DNA from: Chromera velia
Lineage: Eukaryota > Sar > Chromeraceae
NCBI GenBank assembly: GCA_018398765.1
Contig: JAHBMJ010002267.1
Location: 1 to 20,410, forward strand
DNA length: 20,410 nt
Reading direction: 5' to 3'
In this document: positions 866 through 18,290 of the stretch, in pieces
Numbering within the stretch: the first letter of the stretch is position 1
Layout: each line of letters starts with the position of its first letter
Position numbers and translations under genes: made by a program
Notes under the pieces: model-generated
Seen by the model: only the letters and a program-made list of their open reading frames with translations
Database searches by the model: none
Told to the model about the DNA's origin: nothing

Positions 866-1328
866 CACACCATTCTCTTTTGCTTAGCATTATTTTCGAT
901 TAAGTCAATTTATTTAATTCTCATTTTCTTTCTAGTCACGCTTTGATAGCGCATAGCACTGACGATCCAGCACAAGGCTCGAATTTAATATATATTATAT
1001 TTCAGACAAAACGCTAATATAATATAATGCAATATAATGTCATATATAAACTTAATATAATATGGGAGGATGAAGATTGGGTTGGAGGCTGGAGATGTTT
1101 TAGAGTCAGAGAATGAAGATCCGGCCTGCAAAATTTGATGATGACGCGTTTTTTTGGTTCATAAGACGGTTTTTAAAAAGAATTTAGAGGCAGGTTGCTC
1201 TGTTTTACTCTGTTTAAATGGGGGATGTGGTTGAATTAAGAGAGAAAGAAACATAAACATGGGCAAATTTGTATAGATCTTATATCATATTATATTATAT
1301 TTATATTATTATATTAGGGAAACACTAA

Positions 1329-1330
<2 letters not shown>
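866..1330. other. AT-rich intergenic DNA
   Basis: Contains clusters of TAATATAATAT-type words at about 985-1062 and 1280-1318. No coding signal or RNA gene is visible. Confidence 0.5.

Positions 1331-1362
<32 letters not shown>
1331..1362. repeat. (AT)16 microsatellite
   Basis: Uninterrupted AT dinucleotide repeat of 32 nt, immediately upstream of the 135-bp tandem duplication. Confidence 0.95.
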
Positions 1363-1364
<2 letters not shown>

Positions 1365-1388
1365 AATCCAAGCCTAGATGTAGGCCTA

Positions 1389-1643
1389 GATCCAGCATTA
1401 TCCAGGTACATGCACTGTGGCATCCCTAGGTACAGTGTGCTGTTAGAAGTATATAACTACCGGCCCTTCTCAGAAAGCTTTTGGTTACCATCAACTTGGT
1501 AACTAAAATTTGTCTTCAGCTTCGATCCAGCATCATCCAGGTATATGTATCCCTAGGTACACTATGCTGTTAGGAGTATACAACTACCGGCCCTTTTCAG
1601 AAAGCTTTTGCATGGTTACCATCAACTTGGTAACCAAAATTTG
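1389..1643. repeat. Two-copy tandem repeat, about 135-bp period, with hairpin
   Basis: Copy 1 starts at 1389 and copy 2 at 1524, both with GATCCAGCAT(T/C)ATCCAGG. They share long blocks (CTACCGGCCCTT, CAGAAAGCTTTT, TACCATCAACTTGGTAAC). Copy 2 carries a small deletion near the CATCCCTAGG block and a 4-nt CATG insertion before the hairpin. Each copy ends in an inverted repeat; in copy 2 it is perfect (GGTTACC, 8-nt loop, GGTAACC). It may be a remnant of a satellite or a duplicated transposon end. Confidence 0.85.
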
Positions 1644-1883
1644 GTAATTAATTGGAAAGGTCTGAAAGGACTACCACTACCGCGGTAATCTGGCCGTATC
1701 TGCCCGCAAATGTAGTGAATCGAGATCTAATATAGGAGAACCGCATCTTTAAAAACTGTGTATACGACGTAAAAAAGATAATTTTAAAACTTTTTTGACT
1801 TCAACTTATACGTATTTGTAGATATAAGAGATTATAGGGCTGGGAAAAGGTTCATTAAGAAAAGGTTCAAATCTAAAAAAGTG

Positions 1884-1941
1884 AACCTGTTGAACCTGTT
1901 TTGAACCTGTTGAACCTGTTGAACCTGTTTTGAACCTGTTT
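1884..1941. repeat. GAACCTGTT short tandem array (left subterminal)
   Basis: Six consecutive TGAACCTGTT units of 9-11 nt, varying in T number, just inside the left end of the candidate hAT-like element. They are preceded by two inverted copies (GGTTCA). Confidence 0.85.
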
Positions 1942-2520
1942 TGGAGGCCAGACGCGCGGCCACTGGCACAAGGCCGGCCAGGCCTGCACCGCCTATGGCC
2001 GATATAGGTGAAATAAGGAGCCGGAGCCGCGTACACAGCAACTGTCCCCAGCCGGTTCAATCTATTGTGTCGGACAGACGTATGTCAGCATATGTCAGCA
2101 TCATATATCACCATAAAAACTCATGCTGACGGTTGTAGAAGTGAAGAAGTACACGTGACTTACCAAGTTTTCCACTTGCAAGGCCCCGCATCAAAACAAA
2201 CAGTCTCCACTGAAGGAATGAGGAAGTATAGAGTTTGTTTGACAGCAGTCTGCATGACAGTGTAATTGTCATGATTGATACGATTATATAAATTTAATTA
2301 TAACATTTTCCAATTTTTTCAGGCTTTTTTGATTACTAATTTTCAACTATAAACAGTGAATAACTTGAGACTAGCACCTAATGTGAGCGTAAATATTGAT
2401 TTAAACTATTTAAAAACACTACTAAGGCATAGATTCTATAATAAAACGTTCTAAAAATGCATTAAAAGCTAATTTAAAGGCATAAAATAATACAAAAAAA
2501 TAAGGTTTCTATTAATTAAA

Positions 2521-2600
2521 AGTGAACCTGTTTTTGAACCTGTTTTTGAACCTGATTCAGGTTCATTACTTCGAAGTGAACCTTGAACCTTGAACCTTTT
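2521..2600. repeat. GAACCTG short tandem array (right subterminal)
   Basis: Three GAACCTG(TTTTT) units, one GAACCTGATTCAGGTTC palindromic unit and three GAACCTT units end at the right terminus of the candidate element. The motif matches the left array in the same orientation. Confidence 0.8.
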
Positions 2601-2617
2601 CCTAGTACTATAAGAGA

Positions 2618-2941
2618 ACTTAATTTACTAGGAATTTTACAATAAATCTATCTTTAGTACTCAATTTACCCACTAGTTTATCTTACTTAATTTATATTTG
2701 TACACCCAATAGACATCTTAAATAATTTTCAGAATGATTTTTCATATTATGATTCTTTAAAACTTGATTGATATCGTTATGAAGTTTAAAATTACTCTAA
2801 ATAGAAGTTACAGAACCGTCAGAACGGAACAGCTTCATAATTGGCCACAGTAGATGGAAACCAAACTTTTACCAGTCCAAAGTTCTTCATTAACCTTCAA
2901 CTCACTGAACTCAGTGATGATGGCATAATAATTAACTTTAA
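2618..2941. other. AT-rich intergenic DNA, nothing recognised
   Basis: No ORF, RNA gene or repeat is recognised here. Confidence 0.5.
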
Positions 2942-2968
2942 ATGATGATGATGATGATGATGATGATG
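2942..2968. repeat. (ATG)9 microsatellite
   Basis: Nine uninterrupted ATG triplets. They are followed by a compact segment (2969-3045) that contains an imperfect hairpin, GTATAGACTCT ... AGAGCGTCATAC. The arrangement of microsatellite plus short structured segment resembles the 3' tail of some retroposons, but no coding part adjoins it. Confidence 0.9.
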
Positions 2969-3045
2969 TATGGGGTTAAAGCCGGTGAGCCGTATAGACT
3001 CTGGCTAACCTAGAGCGTCATACATAGAGTTAAACTTTCGACTTA

Positions 3046-3977
3046 GGCCCCACTGGGGTAAATTGAATTGATGGGAGCCTGACAAGGGTGGGGAGGCGGA
3101 TGGAAGTGGAGGGTGGCTCCACTTCTGAGCAAACAGGCTTTTGCTTTATCTGGTAATTCTCTTACAGGCTGAGTTACAACATGCTCTCTATCCCACCCTT
3201 GAGACGATTAAGGACTGCCTGCATTTCGCCCGGAAGAGGGTCCCCATGACCGATCAAAGTGCCAGAACAGCACTGGCATGCCCGAGCGGAGGGAGAAACG
3301 AGAAGGAAAGGGAAAAAACAAGTACCTCAGGGGGAATAGAAAGGACGGAGACGGACTCCTCTGTTTCTGTGTCTTTTTTTTCCCCCAAGGGTCATGGGCC
3401 AGTGAGATTCCTTCTGTCAGTTCGTGTCAGTTAGAGGTCTGTCAGATGACCTCTAAAGAAAATTACCCGAGGCGGAACGGAAGGAGACGGAGATAGAAAA
3501 AGATCAAAACTCCCAATTTCCTTTGATTCCCTATCTTTTCTGCCGAAGACGTACAAGCAAAGGTTTCTCTCTCAGTTCAGTTCCTGCAGTTCGGTCAGTT
3601 CAGTCAGTTCAGTCGGTTTGGTCGGTTCATCCCTGAGGCATGACTTATTTTCCAGGGGAGTGAAATTGCAAGTAGTAAGCATGATAAAAAAATTCAAAAA
3701 GGGGAGAAAAAGGGAGAAGAAGAACGGAGAAGCCGTGTGTAGCATTCACCCCGCTCACAGACCCGCTTGTGAACCGCACGAGCATGAGCGCCCCGCGTGC
3801 CCCCCCGTACCTGTGCAGGCTTAAACCCATCACCTCCCACCGCCTCCCACGCTCACGCGAGGGGTGCCATCCGAGCTCCACAGCCTGGGCCTCTTGGGGT
3901 CGTCCGTCTCACGTTTCCCCCCCATATGCTTTTTGCTCACCCCCCGATTGATTCCGTTCCGCCCTTGTTTGTTCATT
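3046..3977. other. Intergenic DNA with short minisatellite
   Basis: No gene is assigned. An open stretch at about 3160-3290 follows an acceptor-like sequence (TTCTCTTACAG at 3157-3167 approximately) but matches no family I recognise. At about 3572-3630 there is a degenerate 9-bp array of (CAGTTCAGT)-type units. Confidence 0.4.
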
Positions 3978-3998
3978 AATCAATCAATCAATCAATCG
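3978..3998. repeat. (AATC)n microsatellite
   Basis: Five tandem AATC units. Confidence 0.85.
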
Positions 3999-4100
3999 GA
4001 TGACACACATTCGGACTGACATAACGAAATATTCCCCTCAAAAACAAGTACGGTCGTCAAGAATGAACAACGATGGGGAAAGAGTGAGAGGAAGTGAGAG

Positions 4101-4128
4101 AAAAGGAAGAAAGAAAGAAAGGAAGAAA

Positions 4129-4162
<34 letters not shown>

Positions 4163-4177
4163 AAAGAGAAAGAAGGA
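4101..4177. repeat. (GAAA)n microsatellite at the LINE 3' end
   Basis: An imperfect GAAA/GGAA repeat. On the minus strand it is a CTTT tract beginning about 25 nt after the last stop codon of the minus-strand LINE ORF (4200-4202). It may therefore be the LINE's own simple-repeat tail rather than an unrelated microsatellite. Confidence 0.8.
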
Positions 4178-4199
4178 CAGACTGAGGGAACACACACAG

Positions 4200-4707
4200 C
4201 TACTTACGAAGGCAATCGGAGATCGCCCGTGCGCCTGCAACAGGGTGCTTTTCGAGGAGAAGTGTGAAGATCTCCCTTACTTTCTTCTCATTTTCGCTCA
4301 CACCCCGTCCCAACTGCTGCTTAGCCATTTGTTGTGCCTACACAATCAAGTCCGACTTAGAGCGAGTGTCTCTTACTTCATCTAAAAGCCTATTCATGCG
4401 TCCCCTCTCCTTTTCGGTCCCTTTGCATTCAGTCAACTTATGGACAATATCATTCAGATAGCCACGTCCATGCAAATTGAGGGGGCAGTGCTCGCAGACC
4501 GTCTCTATTTCCCCGTTCGGAACCCCCCCCCCCCCCTAACAGTGCACGGGCAATCGGTCTGACGTTGGCCTCCGAACAGAGCACCCTCCTAGGGAGAGGT
4601 CGAACCATAGGAATACGCCGCCCGCTTGAGCCGGTCCATCCTCCCATGACAAGACGGGCCAAGCGCTGTCTAGACGGATGTTCGACTTGGAAGACTGAAG
4701 GCCTCAC
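4200..4707 (-). pseudogene. LINE ORF2 C-terminal CCHC knuckle region
   Basis: The segment contains a zinc-knuckle-like CX2C-X14-H-X4-C motif (CEHC ... H ... C, codons spanning 4425-4496). This is the usual C-terminal motif of APE-type LINE ORF2 proteins and probably contacts nucleic acid. Upstream of it a run of 14 G (C14 on plus, 4523-4536) lies between two coding frames, so homopolymer slippage has shifted the frame. After the knuckle, an in-frame TAG (4338-4340) interrupts an otherwise open, Lys/Glu-rich tail. That tail ends at TAG 4200-4202; CAG to TAG is the simplest explanation for the first stop. Confidence 0.75.
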
Positions 4708-4767
4708 TCCGTTAGGGAAAACCCCTTCCCATCCTACCTGCCCTCCCCTGCCCTGCCGGCCCTCTTT

Positions 4768-5483
4768 TTACAAAGAACGGGAAGTAGCTACAAACCAGTC
4801 GTCCAACCATTCTTGTGCCTCCCTACCTCTCCCTTCTACCGCGAGCTTTCTTTTTAATGCAGCTTTCTCTCCCGGGCCTGAAGGCACCCCCTCGACAGAA
4901 AAGAGTTCAGGAGCGAAAGGTCCCACCAACAGCTTGATGGACCTCCACCAATCGCCATAAAGGCTGTCTTTATAGAGATCTAAAAAGCCAGCGGGCATAC
5001 AGTGGGGTGTTAAGGAGAGGCTACGTAAAAAACCCCCCACTCTTTCAGTCAAAATAGCCCGTATCGGGCAAAGGCCGGAGATGAAGAGGGAAGGGACATG
5101 AAACGAATTGTGGGGAAGGCCGAAAACCCATCTAACAAAACGTAGTTGCAAATCATCCAACGCTTTCATGTCTGTCTGACTGAGGGAAAACGCTTCTAGC
5201 CCGTAAAGGGCCACAGGAATCCACAGGCCCTGAAAGAGCATAATTTTCGAAGTCGGAGAGAAACGACCAAGAGAAACACAGAGCCCAATGACCCCCCCGA
5301 GTGCCCTCTCTGCCACCCCCAGGCAATGTCTCACAGAGGAACGGAGAGATCCGCCTTCAAAAAAAGTGTAGCCTAAATACTTATACTGGCCTGTTCTCTC
5401 AACTTCCTTCCCTTCAAAGAAGATTGGCTGACTAATATTCTCCTTGCTGCAGGAAAGCCTCATTACTTTTATCTTTTTAAATT
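4768..5483 (-). pseudogene. LINE ORF2 post-palm (thumb/connection) region
   Basis: An open frame of about 240 codons continues the reverse transcriptase after the frameshift. It contains KYLGYTF (the KxLG motif after motif D), a conserved-looking ALYGLEAF segment (typical LLYGxE/W motif of LINE thumb regions) and RWVFGLP (the RxxLGLP-type motif). These are standard landmarks between the RT palm and the C-terminal knuckle in non-LTR elements. The frame stops at 4768 and the product continues in other frames toward 4200. I cannot assign a clade from these motifs alone. Confidence 0.82.
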
Positions 5484-6050
5484 GACCGTGAAGCCCTACG
5501 TCCGACAATATTCGGTCAATTTATTCATTCTTGCTTGAAGCCCATGTGAAGAACGACCAAACAGAACAAGGTCGTCAGCGTAACCAAGGCTTTCGAGAGG
5601 CTCAGGCCCCACACCGATCGTATCGTCCTGACTGACCCTGACTTTCCCTCTTTTCCTCTTCACCACTACTTCGGTCTTCTTGTTCCCCTTCCCAATGCGA
5701 ACCCCTCTCAATCTGCCTGCCTAAGGGTAGTCACACGTTCTGCTTTCTATAGACCTCTCGTCAGATACTGTTCCATCCTTCTCTGACTCTTCCCCCTCGA
5801 GCTCATCCTCTCGGTGAGCCGAGAGGCGGATGTGGCGGTGCAGATTATTAATGAACAGAAAGAAGAGCAAAGGAGAGAGAAGGTCACCCTGTTTCACCCC
5901 CACCCCTTCCTGTATCTCCCTATCTGCACCATCAACCCTCGCCCAGACATCAAAGTACATAGCATGCACTATCAAAACATCATATTCTGATACACCCTCC
6001 TCCCGAAGCCGTCTCAGCAACAGACCTTGAGGGACTCGGACCTTATCAAA
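5484..6050 (-). pseudogene. LINE reverse transcriptase palm fragment
   Basis: This part would copy LINE RNA into DNA at the nicked target. It begins with FDKV (motif A, catalytic Asp) at 6050. A motif with GVKQGDLLSPLLFFLF follows (RT motif B region), then the catalytic YADD at 5571-5582. The endonuclease and the fingers upstream of motif A are absent. A TAG at 5721-5723 interrupts the same frame between motif B and YADD. Shortly after YADD, a TAG near 5499 stands where related elements usually have Trp in a C.xWGLxVN-type motif, and a 1-nt loss in an A-run near 5480 shifts the frame. The catalytic motifs themselves are intact. Confidence 0.88.
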
Positions 6051-6052
6051 CG

Positions 6053-6759
6053 GTTAAATTTAGAAAATTCATAATCACTAAAATCGTCATATACTAGGCT
6101 ATATATTGCTTTAATTTGTTTTATGTTTGAAAGCGTTTTTTTGTTTTTGAGTGGGAAAACGTTCATGCTAGCGTTTACGATCATGAAAGCCTAGGTAATA
6201 GCTAGTAATAGCCTATTTATAGACTAAATTTAATTTATTATAAGTTTTTTCAAGCTGATCGATAAACTGACCGACGATAATATACAATTTTTTAAGACAC
6301 TGGCACCCAAAGTACCAATCCCAAAAATGGAACCACCCCCCTGGAAAGCACCAGAATACCGGAAGCACCCTGACTTGACAACACTGTGGTATTGTATAAT
6401 TCGTATTTTGCAATTTTAAATTTTTACTCTAACAAAAAAAAAAGAGAGCGGATTGCAATGCATTGCATTGCTCCCACATACTGGCAGGTGAATCAGTTCG
6501 GCTAGTAGCTGGGCTAGCTAGTCGGCTAATATAGCGATCAACTTCAATACAAAGGTGGTGGCCTCTAATGAGTCTCCATGCTGGTCCGCAACGAATCACA
6601 TTCAATTCATCGAAGTATTAAACGGAGACGAGCTTGTGAAGACTCACACTGAAGAGCGAACTAATAATGAATTCCTGCCTTTTCGCAACGACGACGCAGG
6701 CCCAAGTTTGTTTCTCTCGCAGACATTGTCTTGCTGTTCCAGTGCAGCCTGCCCAGCTG
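6053..6759. other. AT-rich spacer between LINE and Mic19 gene
   Basis: 6053-6450 is markedly AT-rich against its neighbours, with no coding signal. A perfect palindrome GCAATGCATTGC lies near 6454-6468. The part closest to 6760 should contain the Mic19 3' UTR; no clear polyadenylation signal was identified. Confidence 0.45.
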
Positions 6760-7032
6760 CTACCCCAGCCGACCGGTAACGCCCGCTGCCGCTCGTCGCG
6801 CACATTGCGTGTAGCGCTCCACAACCTGAGCGCACTTGAGCACGTCAGTCTGATTCGCCCGATAGCACTGAAGGACTCTCTGTCGCTCCCCTGCGCAGGG
6901 TTTCGGAAGAGGCTCGTACCTGCGAAGCGTCATGTCGTTGAAAAATGGGACGAGGAAGTTAGGGTCAAATAAATGCACACACAGTGAAATTCACAGGCCG
7001 AGCCAAAGAAGCAAAGGCTTCTCCGCAGGACA

Positions 7033-7079
<47 letters not shown>

Positions 7080-8015
7080 TACACGCAAACACACGCTCAC
7101 ACACGTTGCTACTTACGCACACACGCGAAAGCTCATGCGTACTCACACACGTACAGTCCCATACAGAAAGACATACACACGCTCAGTCCCATACAAAAAC
7201 ACATACACACGCACAGTCCCATGCATAAGGACATTCACACACGCACAGACCCACGCATGAAGACATACACACGCACAGACCAGGCTGCACGAAAATATGA
7301 CCGGAGACAATAACTGAAAGCAGGGACAGGCGACTGTTTTGGACAGAACAGAACGCGACCCGCGATTGCTTTGGCAGAGAAATAGAGAGACACACCAAAT
7401 GCCTCCTGTATTGAGCAGAGAGAAATCAGAACTGACGACACCAAGCGCCTAACAGTCATAGAGAAGGGAAGCTGAAGCGAAGGATAGGCCAAAACTCTCT
7501 TTAGGTCACTTAATGTTATTGTCGAGGGCATAAACTTTCGATCACTTCCACCAAAATGAGAAAAAGATAAAAAGGGGACTCCATCCATGCATTGTCCGTG
7601 AATGCGTCAGACAGACAGTCAGTGACAGAGTTTGATTTCTATTTCTATTTCTCCTTTCAAACAGACAGGCGACAGCGACACAGGTTTTTCTTTCTCTTCT
7701 GAGTTTTTTCTCGTTCATTGTGTTTTTCTTCTTTCTTCCTTATTGTCCTTGTGTTTCCTCTTTTGGCACACACGCAGACACAAAGAAAGACAGATTATGT
7801 GTTTTGTTTTTCCACGCACACAACAGACAGGAGAGGGAAGGAGGGAGTAAGCAAGGAGCGAAAGAAAGACAGAAAGAAAGAAAATAAATAAATAAAGAAA
7901 GAAAGAAAGCCAGCAAGCAAGCAAGAAAGAAAGAAAGAAAGAAAGAAAGAAGGGAAGGAAGCCAGCAAGCAAGCAAGCAAGCAAGAAAGAAAGGAAGAAA
8001 GAAAGAAAGAAAGAA

Positions 8016-8047
<32 letters not shown>

Positions 8048-8085
8048 AGAAAGACACAGAGACACACAGACACACAGACACACAT

Positions 8086-8158
<73 letters not shown>

Positions 8159-8321
8159 GAGAGAAGGAAAGGGAAGGAAGACAACAGAACGACCGGTCAC
8201 TTAGACTGTGTTGGCAAAGGGGTCGAAGACGGACAGAGTGAATGACGACAGACCAAGCGACAGAACCGGCAGTGAGGTAGACTGCGGTGTATGTTTTTTT
8301 GTACACCCTGTGTATGCTGAC

Positions 8322-12211: not shown

Positions 12212-12831
12212 GTTTTGGAGAGACCTTTCTGCTTCGAAGCACTCAGTCTGTTCTAAACCTCTAGTAGGCACTGCTCGTCGAGTCTGTTTGATGGTGTTTC
12301 ACGTCTTACCTTCTTTGCTATTCCGCTTTGAGTATGCACTCCCTTGAGCGCCAGTCACTCTTCGTTTTTGTGTTTTTTGGTGCTGCACCTCTGTTCTCTT
12401 TTCTGTCTTCTTTTCTTCCATAAAGTCTTTCATATGTAAGACATCTGTGTATGCACTCACTCACCTACACGCAAACCGCGCTCCCGGCTCTCCCTCCTTC
12501 TCTGGCTTCGCTCCTGCCCTTCTGTCTCTTGCTCTTGTACTTTTCCGTCTTTCTGTCTCCTCATTCTCACCTCGCTCTCTCTCCTCCTCCCCCTGGGCCT
12601 CCATGCACACCCATACCTTTTGACGTACCATATTCTTCTTCTTCTTCTTCTCTTCAATCACTCATTTTGCGGGCACTTACCGACCCTTGTGGTCCTTCAG
12701 AGACTTTCAACACTTAAAAATTGACAGAGATCCCAACTGTTGCACACCATCGATCACTTTTGTGAGTCCGTCTCAGTCTTCTCTCTTGCTTCTCGGCTCT
12801 GAAGGGCCTGCCTGTGGCGTGCTCCCTCCTG
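12212..12831. other. Spacer holding repeat copy 2 and a TTC tract
   Basis: No gene recognised. It holds the second 112-bp repeat (12513-12624) and a (TTC)n tract at about 12634-12653. The 5' end of the plus-strand LINE may lie here but cannot be delimited. Confidence 0.4.
12513..12624. repeat. 112-bp dispersed direct repeat, copy 2
   Basis: Direct-orientation partner of 10415-10526, of identical length with scattered substitutions. The flanking sequences do not match. Confidence 0.85.
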
Positions 12832-13437
12832 ATGTTGGAGGAAGACACTTCAGCAAAAACTTCCCCCTCGGAAGAGGAGGCAAAAAGCACAAAGACAAAG
12901 AATTCAAATGCCGTATGCGTCTCTCATCAGCCCGGTCAGTCTGGGGAAACCTCGACCGACCAGAAAATTGACGCCATCCTGAAGGTGATGACTAAACTCG
13001 AGAGTTGCACCATCATAGAGAAGAGGGCGGATGAGTTGATTCAGCAGTCGGAGGATAGAACGGATGCAAAACTCTAAGAGATCCGTGAGGATATGGACGA
13101 AGAAAGAGTGGAGAACCTCCTGAATTGGGTAGAAAAAGAAACAAAGGAACAGAGGGAGAAAAATGGGTGGGTTGTGATCCGATCCCGTGGCCTCCCATTC
13201 CACATTCCCCTCACAGAAGAAGACAGGGAGAGGGCGGAGGGGATTGGGGCTCTGAAGGATGGCCAGTGGCTCCGCAATAGGCAGCATCCTCAGACCACGT
13301 ACTTTTTCTCCCCCATCCGACGTCTCGTCTCCCTCCTCTACTACCTGAAGAACGGTGTTGAAGACAAACACACAGGTGAAGACGAATGGGTGACGGAGGG
13401 GGTTTGGAGTTCAGAGTGGGAGTACCAAGATTTCTAG
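12832..13437 (+). pseudogene. LINE ORF1-like: coiled coil plus possible RRM-like region
   Basis: The ATG at 12832 (MLEEDTSAKTSPSEEEA) opens a frame with an acidic N-terminus and a heptad-like coiled coil (about residues 45-105, QKIDAILKVMTKLES onward). Next comes NGWVVIRSRGLPF, which could be the first strand of an RRM-like fold as in L1 ORF1 proteins. TAA at 13075-13077 interrupts the coiled coil, where Glu (GAA) would fit, and TAG at 13435 ends the block. ORF1 proteins bind LINE RNA and form trimers through such coiled coils. The assignment rests on architecture and on position upstream of an APE domain; no catalytic motif is expected. Confidence 0.5.
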
Positions 13438-13455
13438 CTTCTACAGAGAAGATAA

Positions 13456-14190
13456 AGGTTCCCGGGGGGCCCGTCATACACAGGTGAACTGAAATTCACC
13501 CCCGTGATTGCTTCCAAGTTCCTCCGTTTCGTAGACAGCCTGCGCGTCCAGTTGGGGCTGCAGTACGGAGAACCGATTGTCATCCCCCTTCCCTCAGGGG
13601 AAAATGCGCAGATATTAGTACACCCTGCCTCGACCCCCCTTCACCGCTTCTGGGGGCGGGTTGATAGAGCTCGGATGGCGATGGACAGGGGGGAGGCCTC
13701 AGAGATGCAGATGAATTTGCAGGCTCTTTACTCGGATGTCCGCTCCGATTTCTATTTGGCAGCTGGACCCATTGAGAGGAAGAGAGAGGGACTGATGGAC
13801 AGGCTGCGAGCCTTCAAGACGAAATGGAGAATAGGTTCGATTGGGGGGCAGCAGGGGGGGAAGTTTCCGCCATCAATGGACGAAGAACACCTACAGCAGC
13901 CCCTGCCTAGCTCTAGGAAGTTGCGCCTTCGGAGAACCCGCGAGGTCACTGCAGGCACCCCAAGCACTGCAGAGGTGCTACACAAGCACCGTCAAAAGCT
14001 TCAGGGAGGTGAGGGAAATGGAGTGGGGCGGGGCCTTCTCTTCGGCTCCCATCCTTTCCCTACAGACAGAGCCGGGAGGGGGTGGGGCGGGGGCCCTCTT
14101 CAGCAGCAGCAGGGGCAGGGGGGCCTCGGACCCTTCGCAGGCCTCTCTAAGCAGCAGCAATCCGGAGGGGGTGTAGTGGAGGGAGGCTAG
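13456..14190 (+). pseudogene. ORF1-like C-terminal block, Gln/Gly-rich tail
   Basis: The same frame reopens after TAA 13453-13455. It encodes a protein-like region (FLRFVDSLRVQLGLQYGEP to [15 protein letters not shown], about 115 residues), then a basic RRTRE segment and a low-complexity Gly/Gln tail ending at TAG 14188-14190. A short frame shift separates it from the preceding block: around 13420-13495 the better reading is in another frame. It may correspond to the C-terminal nucleic-acid-binding part of ORF1p, but no motif proves this. Confidence 0.45.
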
Positions 14191-14235
14191 ACCGGCAGCC
14201 TGAGGGTAGGGCAGCCAGGTGAGAGTCATTGTGCA

Positions 14236-15399
14236 ATGTCCATCGATTCTGCCTCTGGCGGGGAGGCTCTGAATGAAGAGAGGCTCCGGCGATTCAATGG
14301 TATCAGCCCCACTAGGGAACGAGGGGGGTCGAAAGCCATGGGGGGTCCGGGGGAAGGGAACGGGGGGGCTCGGCCCCCCCAGCAGCAATAAACTGCAAGC
14401 AAATGGGGGGGGGGACGGGGGAAGGTAATCAGAAGAAGCAGAGGGACACCACTCCCCTCCCCCCGTCTATGCGAGTCCCTCTACAGTGCCCCGTCTCTCG
14501 CCGCTGGTCCTCCGTTGCCTGTCTCCGTCGGCCAGTCCCCCCTCCCTCACAAGAACGTCCCGCACACCTTGAGACCAACGCGTTGCAACCCTCGTTTTTG
14601 TGGATGAGTAAAAAGATTGGACACCGTGCCCCCCACACAAGAAAGCAGGAAGGAGCGAGCGAAGGGGGCGCAGTCCAGGTGCGTCGGTCACCCGATGAAT
14701 AGACGTTTCTCCTCTTCTCCTTCTCACCATGAGTGTGCGAATCTTTTCGACAAGACAGCTCGACTCTTTGACCCCCTTGACATACCAATCCCTTCAGCCC
14801 CTCCTCTTTCCTCCCTTTTGCATCACTCCCTTTTTTCACAATCTCCTGACGCTAGCTTTTCTGCCTTGACTCCTCCGAAAACCCCTCCACTCACTTCTTC
14901 CTCCCTCACTTTTTCTGATAACCTGACCACTCACACGCCTGCTCCCTGTGCTGGGCTTGCGGCCCTTTTGCTCCCTTCGCCTGCAGGCGCATCTCTGCCC
15001 GCTGGGGTGGTGTGCAGAAACAGATGGTCTGTGCTGGGGGAGGAAGAAGAAGAAGATAGGAGCACCAACGTGAGTAGCCAGTCTACTCAGTCTTCTCCTC
15101 GCGTTTTTCTCCATCCATCGTCTCTCCCCCCACTTAGTTCCTGCCCTCCCGCATGGGGCTCTTGTCCGGTTTGGGATGGCTTGCCTTCTCTCCTTTCCAC
15201 TCTTCTTCCTCATTCTCCAGTCAAGGAATGCATTCCGCTCTCCTCTGTGATTCCTCCCCCTGGCTTCATCCCGATGAGTGGTTGGGACGGTCTGGGGTTC
15301 AAAAGTGAGATGACAAGGAAAAAGGCAGCGAGGAGGAACAGACGGTTAAAAGACAGAAAAAAAGAAGCAAAAAGAGAATTGAGAAGGGCACAGGGATAG
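14236..15399 (+). pseudogene. Pro/Ser-rich ORF1-type module 1
   Basis: Frame +1 continues with a short block MSIDSASGGEALNEERLRRF (14236-14391), then after TGA 14605 runs open for 260 codons to TAG 15397. It is Ser/Pro/Leu-rich and contains NRWSVLGEEEEED at about 15018-15056, similar to the aromatic-x-VL-acidic motif common in LINE ORF1 proteins. It ends in a strongly basic tail (RRNRRLKDRKKEAKRELRRA). The basic tail suits nucleic-acid binding. Stops at 14389 and 14605 show decay. The boundary between ORFs is unknown. Confidence 0.45.
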
Positions 15400-16845
15400 G
15401 TGAGTTCTGACGGTGCACTGAATACAGAATGTTTGGCTTCCCCCTCCCCCTCTTCCTCCCCTCCTCTCTCTCAATCTGGCCCGGGTCCTTTCCCTACCGT
15501 CTCTTGTTCGTCTTCAGATTCGTGTTCTTTTCCTTCCCCCACCACACCCTCTCCAGCTCGCTCTCTCCCGCTTCTTCCCCCCCCCCTATGTACCGTACGT
15601 GTATGCTGAATGATACATCCTTTCCATGTGTTCCTCCGTGCCTCTCTCTCCCTATTGTCTCTCAGTTCGCTTTTGGTCGGTCCTCATCTGTTATTCCCCC
15701 CCCTTCTTTTGTATTCATAGATTCTTGGCTTGGTTCCGTTCAACCCCCCGCCCCAACCCTCTGCTCGCCTCCGTTGCTTTCCCCTTCCCCATCTCATTTT
15801 CTTCCCCCCCCGCCACCTCCCCCTCTGCCTCCTTCCCCGGAGGCTCCTCCTCCCCCTCCTGAACCTCCTCCTCCTCCTCCTCGGATTTATGGTATGTATA
15901 TTTGTTCTTGTGTTGATGGTGTGGATTCCTCTGCCTGTTGACTGGGAAGGAGGATACGCAAACGGGGGAAAGAAGACAAACAGGCAGGCCTCTTTTCGCA
16001 CTCCTCTCCTACTTTTGCACCTCCTCCCTCCATCCTCACCCCCACCTTCTTCAACTCGCTCTTTTTCCTACTCCGCCCCCGGTTCTGGTATGGGAAAAGA
16101 AGGGGAAGCTAAGGAACGGGAAAGGGGGGGTGGTGAGAGGCCAGGCGGCCGGGGGCACTCGAGTTCTCCTTCGCACGCTTTGCCCTTCCTTTCTCCTTCT
16201 TCCCTTTTCTGTCCAGTCTTCCCTTCCACTCTCCCGGACGAGCCACCGCCTCTCAACTTTGCTGTTCCTGCTCTTTGTCCACCTGCCTCACTTCCATTTC
16301 CCCTCACTCCACCTCCAGTGGCACCCCCTCCTTTTTGCTCCTCCCTGTCCTCTCTGCCTGTTGTTCAAGCGGCCTGCGGACCAAGTTACGGTGTTCCTCA
16401 TGGTGCTTCTTTCTTCTCCTCAGCTTCTTCTCTCCCTCTTCCTCCGCCCATCCGTTCTCGTTCTGCTTTTTCCTTCCTACCCCCCTCGCAGAGAGAATGT
16501 GGACAGGGGGAGCAGCAGTCGAACAGACAGGCCTCAGGTAGCAAATTGGGGGACGGAGAGAAAAGTAAAGGGAGAGAGAGATATGATATTTTGTCTGAGG
16601 ATGCGTCGGACGGGGAGACGGCATGCTCGAGCGTGATGAGCACGGATCCAACTGCAGGCAAGTCCCTCTCCTCTCTTTCCGACTCGACTCTCTCCCCTCC
16701 TGCCTCTGATATCGTACCTGACTTTTTGTCTTCTCCCCCCCCCTGCAGCCAAGCCTCTCCAGAGTCTTTTTGCTTGGATCCGTCTCTTTTGTCTGGGGTA
16801 GAGAGGAAGAATCGTAGAAAAGGAAGGGGGAAGAAAAGAAGCTAG
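15400..16845 (+). pseudogene. Pro/Ser-rich ORF1-type module 2
   Basis: A second Pro/Ser-rich stretch repeats the plan of module 1: low-complexity Pro/Ser, then ERYDILSEDASDGET (about 16577-16621), a Ser/Thr/Pro segment and a basic tail KNRRKGRGKKRS before TAG 16843. Frame +1 stops occur at 15607 and 15718. In 15429-15941 frame 0 is the more protein-like (PPPPP-rich), so a frameshift is likely there. Hydrophobic Leu runs in frame +1 near 15830 are CCT repeats read in the wrong frame, not membrane helices. Confidence 0.4.
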
Positions 16846-17740
16846 GAAAAGAAGAGAAAGGAAGAGGGCAGGCGTCGCATCCCGAAAGTCTCAGCCGGAT
16901 CAGCCGGGGGAAGCAGGGGGCTCGGTTGCTTCGGAGACGGAGTGGGAGGTGGTGTAGGTGTTAGACACCCGCATCAATGAAGGGGGGCAGAAGGAGTATT
17001 ATGTGGATTGGGGCCCTGCTTTTTCGCATTCGTGGGAGTCGGCAGATAATTTGAAGCATTCGGAAGAGTTGAGAAGAGCTTTTTGGAGAGAGAGAAGGAA
17101 GGTGGCAGAAAGGAAGGTTTTGGTCGTAATTAGGGCCCGGGATGGGAGAGTAAAGATTGTTACCCTGAATGTCGCCGGCCTGAAGGCCAGGGAAGAGGAC
17201 GGTTCCCTCGCTCGTTGGCTGAGTGACATTGATTGCGATATTGTGATCTTGACAGAGACGTCAGAGGTCACGAGCCTCAGGGACGTTTCGTGCGATGGGT
17301 GGAAGGGAAAGAATTTCAGTCACAGAGAATGGTACCGGCGGCAGTTGGGCACGTGTAGGGCAGCGCATGACAGGGAATTGAAAACTGGGGGAGTTTGTGT
17401 GTTAGTTCGAGAAGAAAGATGGAGCGAATTGAAACCTGAAATCTCGTTGGTCGGCCCCAGTGTAGTGGAAACAAAAGTTCTGTTGGGGGGTTCTAGAAGG
17501 GTTCACATCTTTGGCATCTACCTGCTTAGCTCCTGGTCAGATCACAGAGACAGCAAGGTCTCTGACCATTTGAGTGACCTTTTTGGGGGGGTCCCCCTGG
17601 ATGTCGATAGAGTTGTGGTTGGGGACTGCAACACGCATACAGGCTCCCTTTTACCTGAGAATCTTCTCTGGTCCCATACAGATCTCCTCCTTCCGCCCAA
17701 AGAGTCTGGTAGCAGTGAGGAGCCTTTTGAGGGGGGAGGC
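16802..17740 (+). pseudogene. LINE ORF2 N-terminus: chromodomain-like segment plus AP endonuclease
   Basis: Frame +2 is open from 16802. After a basic stretch comes a chromodomain-like segment (16940-17100): EWEVV, TAG stop (16955-16957), then VLDTR, KEYYVDW, SWESADNL and an L..AF helix. These match the chromodomain pattern of (Y/W)xVE-LDxR, EYxVxW, xWEPxxNL. The endonuclease follows from 17150: VTLNVAGL (Asn), CDIVILTET (catalytic Glu), GGVCVLV, HIFGIYLLSS and VVVGDCNTHTG (the GDFN motif with Asp and Asn). The endonuclease nicks target DNA to start reverse transcription. The usual terminal SDH motif is missing; similarity ends near 17700-17740. One stop plus the 3' truncation make it inactive. 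Confidence 0.78.
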
Positions 17741-18290
17741 AATGGAGATGGTAGTGTTGTGGGGGATGGTTCGACGCGCAGTCGACACTCTCACTCTTCT
17801 ATTTGCTGTGTCAGCGTCATGCATGTCCACTCTTGTACTCTTGCTCCCAGTCTCTCTCATTTTTCCTTCTTCCCCCCCTTTTCTTTTTTCACTCTTCCCC
17901 CCTGAACCCCAGACAGACAGCGGGGAAGTAAAAACAACAGATAACATAAGACAGAGACAGCAAGAGAAGCAACACAGCAATATTTGCCCTACAGACATCC
18001 CGGCTGAAGTCCTCAGCCCCCAGGCGGCCGTTCTCAGGCACTGAAGACAAACAGCCTCTCCTTTCCCTGCCCCACTATGATCATTCTCTCATGCAGTCAC
18101 TTCTCTTCTTCGCGACATTGCCTCTTCTCTTTTGTGCTTGTATCTCTTCTCTTCGGCAATGACCTCAAAATCTCTACCTACCAGTTTCCTCACTTCTTTC
18201 TGTCCCTCTCTCTCCTTCTTTCATTCTTTTTTTCTTCCTTCTTTCCCTCCATCCGAACTACCTAGATCCCCAGGATGCATTCCTATCTAG
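17741..18290. other. LINE 3' breakpoint region, pyrimidine-rich
   Basis: The endonuclease frame runs on to 17905 but loses protein character. A second frame encodes a Gln/Arg-rich peptide at about 17906-18044 after an acceptor-like CCCCAG; its significance is unclear. The rest (18060-18265) is pyrimidine-rich and non-coding. Confidence 0.35.

Follow-up and report, generated by a model that had tools for sequence, protein, structure and literature searches.

A chromodomain directly before the endonuclease in LINEs of Chromera velia and its possible role in target choice

Introduction

Can a LINE carry a chromatin-reading module in front of its endonuclease, and could such a module help to choose where the element inserts? 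What decides where LINEs insert is not settled, and much of the thinking centres on the short DNA motif of the endonuclease, which makes the first nick of target-primed reverse transcription. To our knowledge, a chromodomain is not a standard part of ORF2 in APE-type LINEs. The question is raised by a stretch of 20,410 nucleotides from Chromera velia (contig JAHBMJ010002267.1, positions 1 to 20,410, hereafter the window), in which an earlier note had seen a chromodomain-like segment joined to a LINE endonuclease. Here, we analyse this locus and its relatives across the genome and weigh what the segment may do.

Results

Layout and state of the copy in the window

The copy in the window consists of the following features:

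12766 to 14190, plus strand: possible ORF1, charged and coiled-coil-like (by eye), with broken frames (window ORFs)
13476 to 17769, plus strand: part of the window common to other copies of LINE family A (blastn against L009-L016; the 5' edge differs per copy)
15721 to 16845, plus strand: N-terminal extension, rich in Pro and Ser, that contains a basic stretch (L010 and L014 translations; window frame)
16943 to 17089, plus strand: chromodomain, a Pfam match with a stop inside (PF00385, profile matches to solved chromodomains, structure model and Foldseek)
16955 to 16957, plus strand: TAG stop, absent from most copies (only in the window and L009, 2 of the 21 copies read)
17090 to 17158, plus strand: last part of the C-terminal helix, followed by a basic linker that leads to the endonuclease; under weaker constraint than the two adjoining domains (pN/pS between A and B of 0.55 over 16 codons, 17102-17149)
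17159 to 17638, plus strand: endonuclease domain of the APE type (PF03372, 25.8 bits, positions 1-157 of the 225 in the profile, residues 68-227 of a 315-aa frame)

In the translation of the window, one frame from 16904 reads SETEWEVV, a stop and then VLDTRINEGGQKEYYVDWGPAFSHSWESADNLKHSEELRRAFWRERRK, and continues into an endonuclease with LNVAG, LTET and GDCN. The earlier note had placed EWEVV-stop-VLDTR, KEYYVDW and SWESADNL in a single frame ahead of these endonuclease motifs, and this can be read directly from the translation. The N-terminal extension runs on into the chromodomain frame in other copies (translations of L010 and L014); relative to these, the window has a frame change at about 16845. 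Blastn homology of the window to the family A copies stops at or before 17769, and the reverse transcriptase (RT) of the window copy is thus missing. With the internal stop at 16955-16957, the frame change and the loss of homology, the window copy is dead. A programmed stop ahead of VLDTR was considered and rejected, as only 2 of the 21 copies contain this stop.

The portion of the possible ORF1 upstream of 13476 is not common to any fetched copy. We found no Pfam family above the cut-off when scanning 13078-13437 and 13456-14190, and no convincing match between the possible ORF1 and the ORF1 of family B. A fragment of another LINE lies elsewhere in the window, on the minus strand at 4666-6053. 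It includes a partial RT (RVT_1, 22.5 bits, below the cut-off), and its C-terminal part is 44% identical to a family E protein.

Both domains are recognised by profiles

We scanned the proteins with Pfam profiles, using cut-offs of 25.1 bits for Chromo (PF00385), 24.5 bits for Exo_endo_phos (PF03372) and 29.6 bits for RVT_1. Window positions 16889-17143, translated with the stop as X, match Chromo with 28.2 bits (hmmscan, E 1.8e-6), covering positions 1-52 of the 53 in the profile; on its own, the part downstream of the stop scores 19.2 bits and thus falls below the cut-off. In the 315-aa frame at 16958-17905, Exo_endo_phos is above its cut-off. Stop-free stretches of other copies, scanned unaltered, confirm that the segment is a chromodomain and that it is fused to an APE-type LINE endonuclease, as had been proposed. 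L028 has a stretch of 306 aa with Chromo (29.0 bits) and Exo_endo_phos (30.5 bits) in one frame, and L024 has a stretch of 571 aa with 28.2 and 36.9 bits, respectively; both copies contain stops farther out. The stop-free stretch of L019, only 66 aa long, reaches 36.9 bits for Chromo.

Comparison to solved structures gives the same picture for the chromodomain. A profile built from 10 stop-free copies matches solved chromodomains (CDYL at 1.9e-6, CDYL2, Chp1 and CBX5), and L028 as a single sequence matches CDYL (6.3e-6) as well as HP1 alpha, CBX5 (6.9e-6). PF03372 is above the cut-off in the window, L018, L024, L028, L049, L050 and L052, and is below it in L051 (14.1 bits). Among the proteins scanned from the window and the other LINE copies, there was no match to an integrase.

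Copies across the genome

The genome searched, which looks algal, comprises 177.8 Mb. It contains light-harvesting genes (58 matches), whose best solved match points to no particular organism. IMCp gave 11 matches but matched in a control bacterium as well, and ACDC gave none, as was the case for its controls. With the chromodomain-endonuclease protein of the window as query, 150 of 328 candidate places were scored. We fetched 20 of the best places, chosen for covering both parts, and read 21 copies including the window. The chromodomain and the endonuclease lie in one frame with near-equal spacing in all 21; as the fetched copies were picked by a search for both parts, this is not an unbiased count of the fusion. 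Searching with the chromodomain alone (150 scored of 251 candidates) yielded 36 places at E <=1.1e-12. Of these, 23 belong to subfamily B, with 82-100% identity to the query, and 13 to subfamily A (50-62%). At 35 of these 36 places, a same-strand match of the two-part query extends beyond the domain into the endonuclease, the exception being C3942. Below the top 36, aside from two short LINE fragments (C1833 and C1547), come two further places (E 3e-7 and 5e-7) and then a weaker tier of chromodomains at E 1e-4 and worse.

The earlier note had named two outcomes that would speak against its proposal, namely no chromodomain match and a segment separate from the endonuclease in other copies. We found a chromodomain match, and the segment is contiguous with the endonuclease in the other copies read. 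The earlier note had also asked whether intact copies keep the chromodomain, the endonuclease and the RT in one ORF. The first two are contiguous, but none of the 21 A and B copies has all three uninterrupted, and the ORF2 frame of each is broken by one stop or more.

Beyond this LINE type, the genome has no fewer than 150 strong chromodomain places (554 candidates, of which 150 were scored). Some chromodomains of the weaker tier, and others of the genome, are preceded by same-strand integrase matches, as on C224, C1845 and C265. Two stop-free chromodomain matches, C1119:14184-14345 (49%) and C884:72944-73111 (46%), resemble the LINE type more closely than do the remaining non-LINE chromodomains listed; they may be donor genes or further LINE families.

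Structure of the elements

The copies of subfamily B share about 6.0 kb, corresponding to L018 oriented 2186-8185. Their ORF1 has 278 aa and, on visual inspection, resembles a coiled coil; none of the Pfam families exceeded its cut-off (MerR-DNA-bind with E 0.04 and FTA4 with E 0.098 were below it). Their ORF2 encodes, in this order, an N-terminal extension, a basic stretch, the chromodomain, the endonuclease and the RT. In L018, the chromodomain and the endonuclease-RT part are in the same frame, which is broken by one stop. The family A copy L010 matches RVT_1 with 53.0 bits, and the interrupted L018 stays below the cut-off (26.1 bits).

Matches of the family A copies to the window start variably, at 13476, 13955, 15313, 15700, 16171, 16651 and 16792 in seven of the eight copies; the eighth, L011, starts after a run of N and was left out of this list. 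The 3' ends consist of CTAA repeats in 6/8 A copies and of ATCA repeats in 9/11 B copies, and the remaining copies end earlier. The elements hence combine a variable 5' truncation with a common 3' end, as expected of an APE-type LINE. Among 11 copies examined for target-site duplications, none showed a flush repeat in excess of chance expectation; an 18-base repeat in L020 (0 of 300 shuffles) does not abut the assigned element ends. In L021, a family B copy, ORF1 occurs twice in tandem (oriented 982-3063).

Selection on the chromodomain

Comparing A to B copies (108 pairs), pN/pS is 0.28 for the chromodomain, 0.30 for the endonuclease, 0.55 for the linker and 0.67 for the region before the chromodomain. 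These ratios are rough, since pS has reached saturation between the two subfamilies (0.76-0.83). Among A copies, the chromodomain has 0.39 and the endonuclease 0.48; among B copies, the values are 0.43 and 0.41, respectively. The rough ratios suggest that, while the elements were active, the chromodomain was preserved about as well as the endonuclease. We conclude that, in two LINE subfamilies, a chromodomain lies directly N-terminal to the APE-type endonuclease, is fused to it and is under constraint.

Predicted fold and candidate aromatic cage

We modelled 58 residues of the window (16937-17110, stop as Q) with AlphaFold from the single sequence. The best of five models has a pLDDT of 83 and a pTM of 0.58 (the other four: pLDDT 53-75.5), and it is predicted to form strands at 7-13, 19-24 and 32-35 and a helix at 36-57, that is, a three-stranded sheet followed by a C-terminal helix. 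When this model was searched with Foldseek, the 50 matches listed of 318 were all chromo, chromoshadow or tandem chromodomains, with a best E of 0.03 and thus no match below E 0.001. A model of 82 residues was poor (pLDDT 59.6); its first 31 Foldseek matches are of the chromo type and the later ones not all.

The likely cage places are W8, W30 and F34 of alignment A1, and they are invariant in its 10 stop-free rows. This alignment holds 10 of the 20 fetched copies, the other 10 having been excluded for stops; in two of those excluded, L010 and L018, the stop falls exactly on the second cage Trp. More generally, 8/21 copies (L010, L018, L020-L023, L025 and L026) have a stop in place of a Trp codon, either in the chromodomain or in its helix. 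Several copies are hit at the same codon, which may reflect shared descent or a bias of decay from G to A.

Trp instead of Tyr at the first cage position, as the earlier note had pointed out, is indeed present. The same change occurs in a structure among the Foldseek matches, dHP1 Y24W with trimethyllysine (6mha), and according to passages of the published work, Y24W is tolerated in HP1 and binds trimethyllysine more strongly (PMC7764450). The short loop of 7 residues between the two Trp is real, too, and L071 on C224, a chromodomain preceded by an integrase match, shares it. Compared to HP1, the loop is two residues shorter and the third aromatic residue is located one place later, which leaves the candidate cage unproved. 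Judged from the alignment, Trp, Trp and Phe of the A and B chromodomain are likely a candidate methyl-lysine cage.

More distant LINE families

Families E and F encode a degenerate chromodomain-like segment, a Ser-rich linker and then the endonuclease, and in families C and D a segment is found in the same place as the A/B chromodomain. In family D, the chromodomain-like segment, the endonuclease and the RT lie in one open frame of 1658 aa; the RT of L049, a member of this family, matches RVT_1 with 94.6 bits and has R2 and L1 as best solved matches. When one protein per family was scanned, those of C to F all stayed below the Pfam Chromo cut-off, and the profiles A2 (C/D) and A3 (E/F) found no solved chromodomain.

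We thus compared profiles directly. Against profile A6, which combines 5 LINE A/B rows with 10 other chromodomains of the genome, P was 1.5e-6 for E/F and 0.0047 for C/D, and an unrelated control gave 0.86; against A1, it was 4e-4 for E/F and 0.044 for C/D. Per 500 shuffles each, the number scoring as high against A6 was 0 for F, 0 for E, 4-5 for D and 15-109 for C. Against A1, it was 0 for F, 31-55 for E, 168-207 for D and 242-475 for C, such that this narrower profile supports F only. Based on these comparisons, we treat the segments of E and F as relatives of the chromodomain, that of D is likely a relative, and that of C is unproved on its own. By eye, families C, E and F are without Trp at the second cage place; reading of methyl-lysine is thus not general in this LINE group.

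The family F query found 76 places, comprising 48 at 82-100% identity over at least 53 of 61 residues, 17 at 36-45%, to which C209 and C923 of family E belong, and a remaining 11 that are fragments or intermediates. Between segment and endonuclease, the gap measures 254-603 bases in 31 pairs that were picked because both parts were listed. In the stretches read of families G (L054 and L055) and H (L057), no chromodomain is visible before the endonuclease; the corresponding stretch of L053 consists almost entirely of N. In a tree of 22 endonuclease rows, C and D group with A and B (95/95), and E to H are found on the opposite side of a midpoint root that serves for drawing only. With this arrangement, a single old gain of the chromodomain followed by losses is possible.

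Cys-rich clusters occur in the N-terminal part of ORF2 (L049:1507-1656, L050:634-783, L051:287-436, L054:526-801 on the minus strand and L057:1167-1712). By eye they resemble CXC motifs of the MSL2/tesmin type, an assignment that was not established by statistics: MSL2-CXC matched 1/7 members with E 0.39, and a search of solved structures with the clusters found no CXC domain. Lastly, the translation of L050 shows a family F LINE that is seemingly nested inside family A element sequence. This nested insertion fits chromatin steering but proves nothing, being one case with no control.

Discussion

Our main reading, to which we assign a probability of about 0.6, is that the window holds a dead LINE copy whose ORF2 chromodomain, placed before the endonuclease, would bind a methylated histone and thereby steer insertion. 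The chromodomain would bind the methylated histone tail via Trp, Trp and Phe and would hold the ORF2 protein and its RNA on marked nucleosomes. The endonuclease nick and target-primed reverse transcription would thereby be placed in chromatin of the same type, probably silenced and repeat-rich. The arrangement would thus be the LINE counterpart of the integrase chromodomains of chromoviruses, where the chromodomain of MAGGY recognises H3K9me2/3 and targets integration to heterochromatin, according to passages of PMC3350952. The position of the chromodomain directly before the endonuclease suggests that the A and B elements may pick landing sites by reading chromatin marks.

A wider version of this reading extends to the whole LINE group, which would share a chromatin-reading front end of ORF2 that guides the start of target-primed reverse transcription. 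The chromodomain would then be intact in A and B, remodelled in C to F and inherited over deep divergence, with zinc-finger-like Cys clusters preceding the domain in several families. We put this forward tentatively and give it somewhat less than even odds.

The chromodomain fold may instead be used otherwise, for binding RNA or DNA, for dimerisation or for contact with a host protein, as has been proposed for chromoshadow domains and for some retrotransposon chromodomains. The cage that is degenerate by eye in the relatives C, E and F would fit such a use, as would the basic residues located in the helix and linker after the domain. Furthermore, most plant retrotransposon chromodomains are described, in passages of PMC3350952, as being without two cage residues and yet persist. 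The invariance of all three aromatic positions in the stop-free A and B rows (10 rows, with the 10 stop-containing rows excluded) speaks against another use, which we consider rather unlikely.

The possibility that the chromodomain is a passenger without a role, gained once in frame, has much less in its favour. Decay of the ORF2 frame in each of the 21 copies and the endonucleases of G and H that come without a visible chromodomain could be reconciled with it. However, between A and B the chromodomain is as constrained as the endonuclease, which disfavours a passenger, and a relic is still detectable in the more distant families E and F; we thus regard this explanation as very improbable. That the domain is a misreading, either of Trp and acidic residues that happen to follow one another or of an LTR-element chromodomain beside a LINE fragment in one copy, could draw on the stop inside the window domain, the low score of the piece after it and the many other chromodomains of the genome, but it is rejected by the endonuclease match at 35 of 36 places and the stop-free two-domain stretches of L028 and L024, with Pfam and profile scores and the shared frame and spacing of the (both-part selected) 21 copies also against it, and has next to no chance of being right.

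If steering by the chromodomain is true, a histone reader fused to a LINE endonuclease would offer a clean and separable test of chromatin guidance, and LTR elements and LINEs would have gained the same kind of module. The genome supplies an internal control in the form of related LINEs with a degenerate or no visible domain. Within the titles, starts of abstracts and passages of the open-access literature, with Repbase and subscription papers outside this scope, we found no report of a LINE with a chromodomain. The terms chromodomain, LINE, LINEs and non-LTR are absent from the main text of the Chromera genome paper, searched for these terms (PMC4501334). For the centromeric LINE Celine, the authors report, in the passages available, no domain like the CRM chromodomain (PMC11288735).

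When comparing the elements to known systems, we find that they resemble L1 and other APE-type LINEs in having ORF1 before ORF2, an APE endonuclease followed by the RT, and 5' truncation. Their chromodomain is similar to those of HP1, CDYL and Chp1 in its profile, in the strand-strand-strand-helix layout and in Trp at the second cage place, whereas it differs in Trp for Tyr at the first place, in the loop that is two residues shorter and in a long basic C-terminal helix. Chronos (an oomycete Ty3/gypsy element), CoDi-I (a diatom Ty1/copia element) and Gypsy lineages of Ectocarpus, for which chromodomains or a Tudor domain are described in passages of PMC5348765 and PMC12477816, are likewise retrotransposons that independently acquired a histone-reader domain; as described there, all of these are LTR elements, unlike the LINE found here. 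A parallel in arrangement exists with chromoviruses (Ty3/gypsy, e.g. MAGGY): both fuse a retrotransposon chromodomain to the enzyme that joins the element to its target. Chromoviruses are defined by LTRs and an integrase with a C-terminal chromodomain, whereas here the LINE proteins scanned gave no integrase match, the RT is of the non-LTR type, and the chromodomain lies N-terminal to an APE-type LINE endonuclease.
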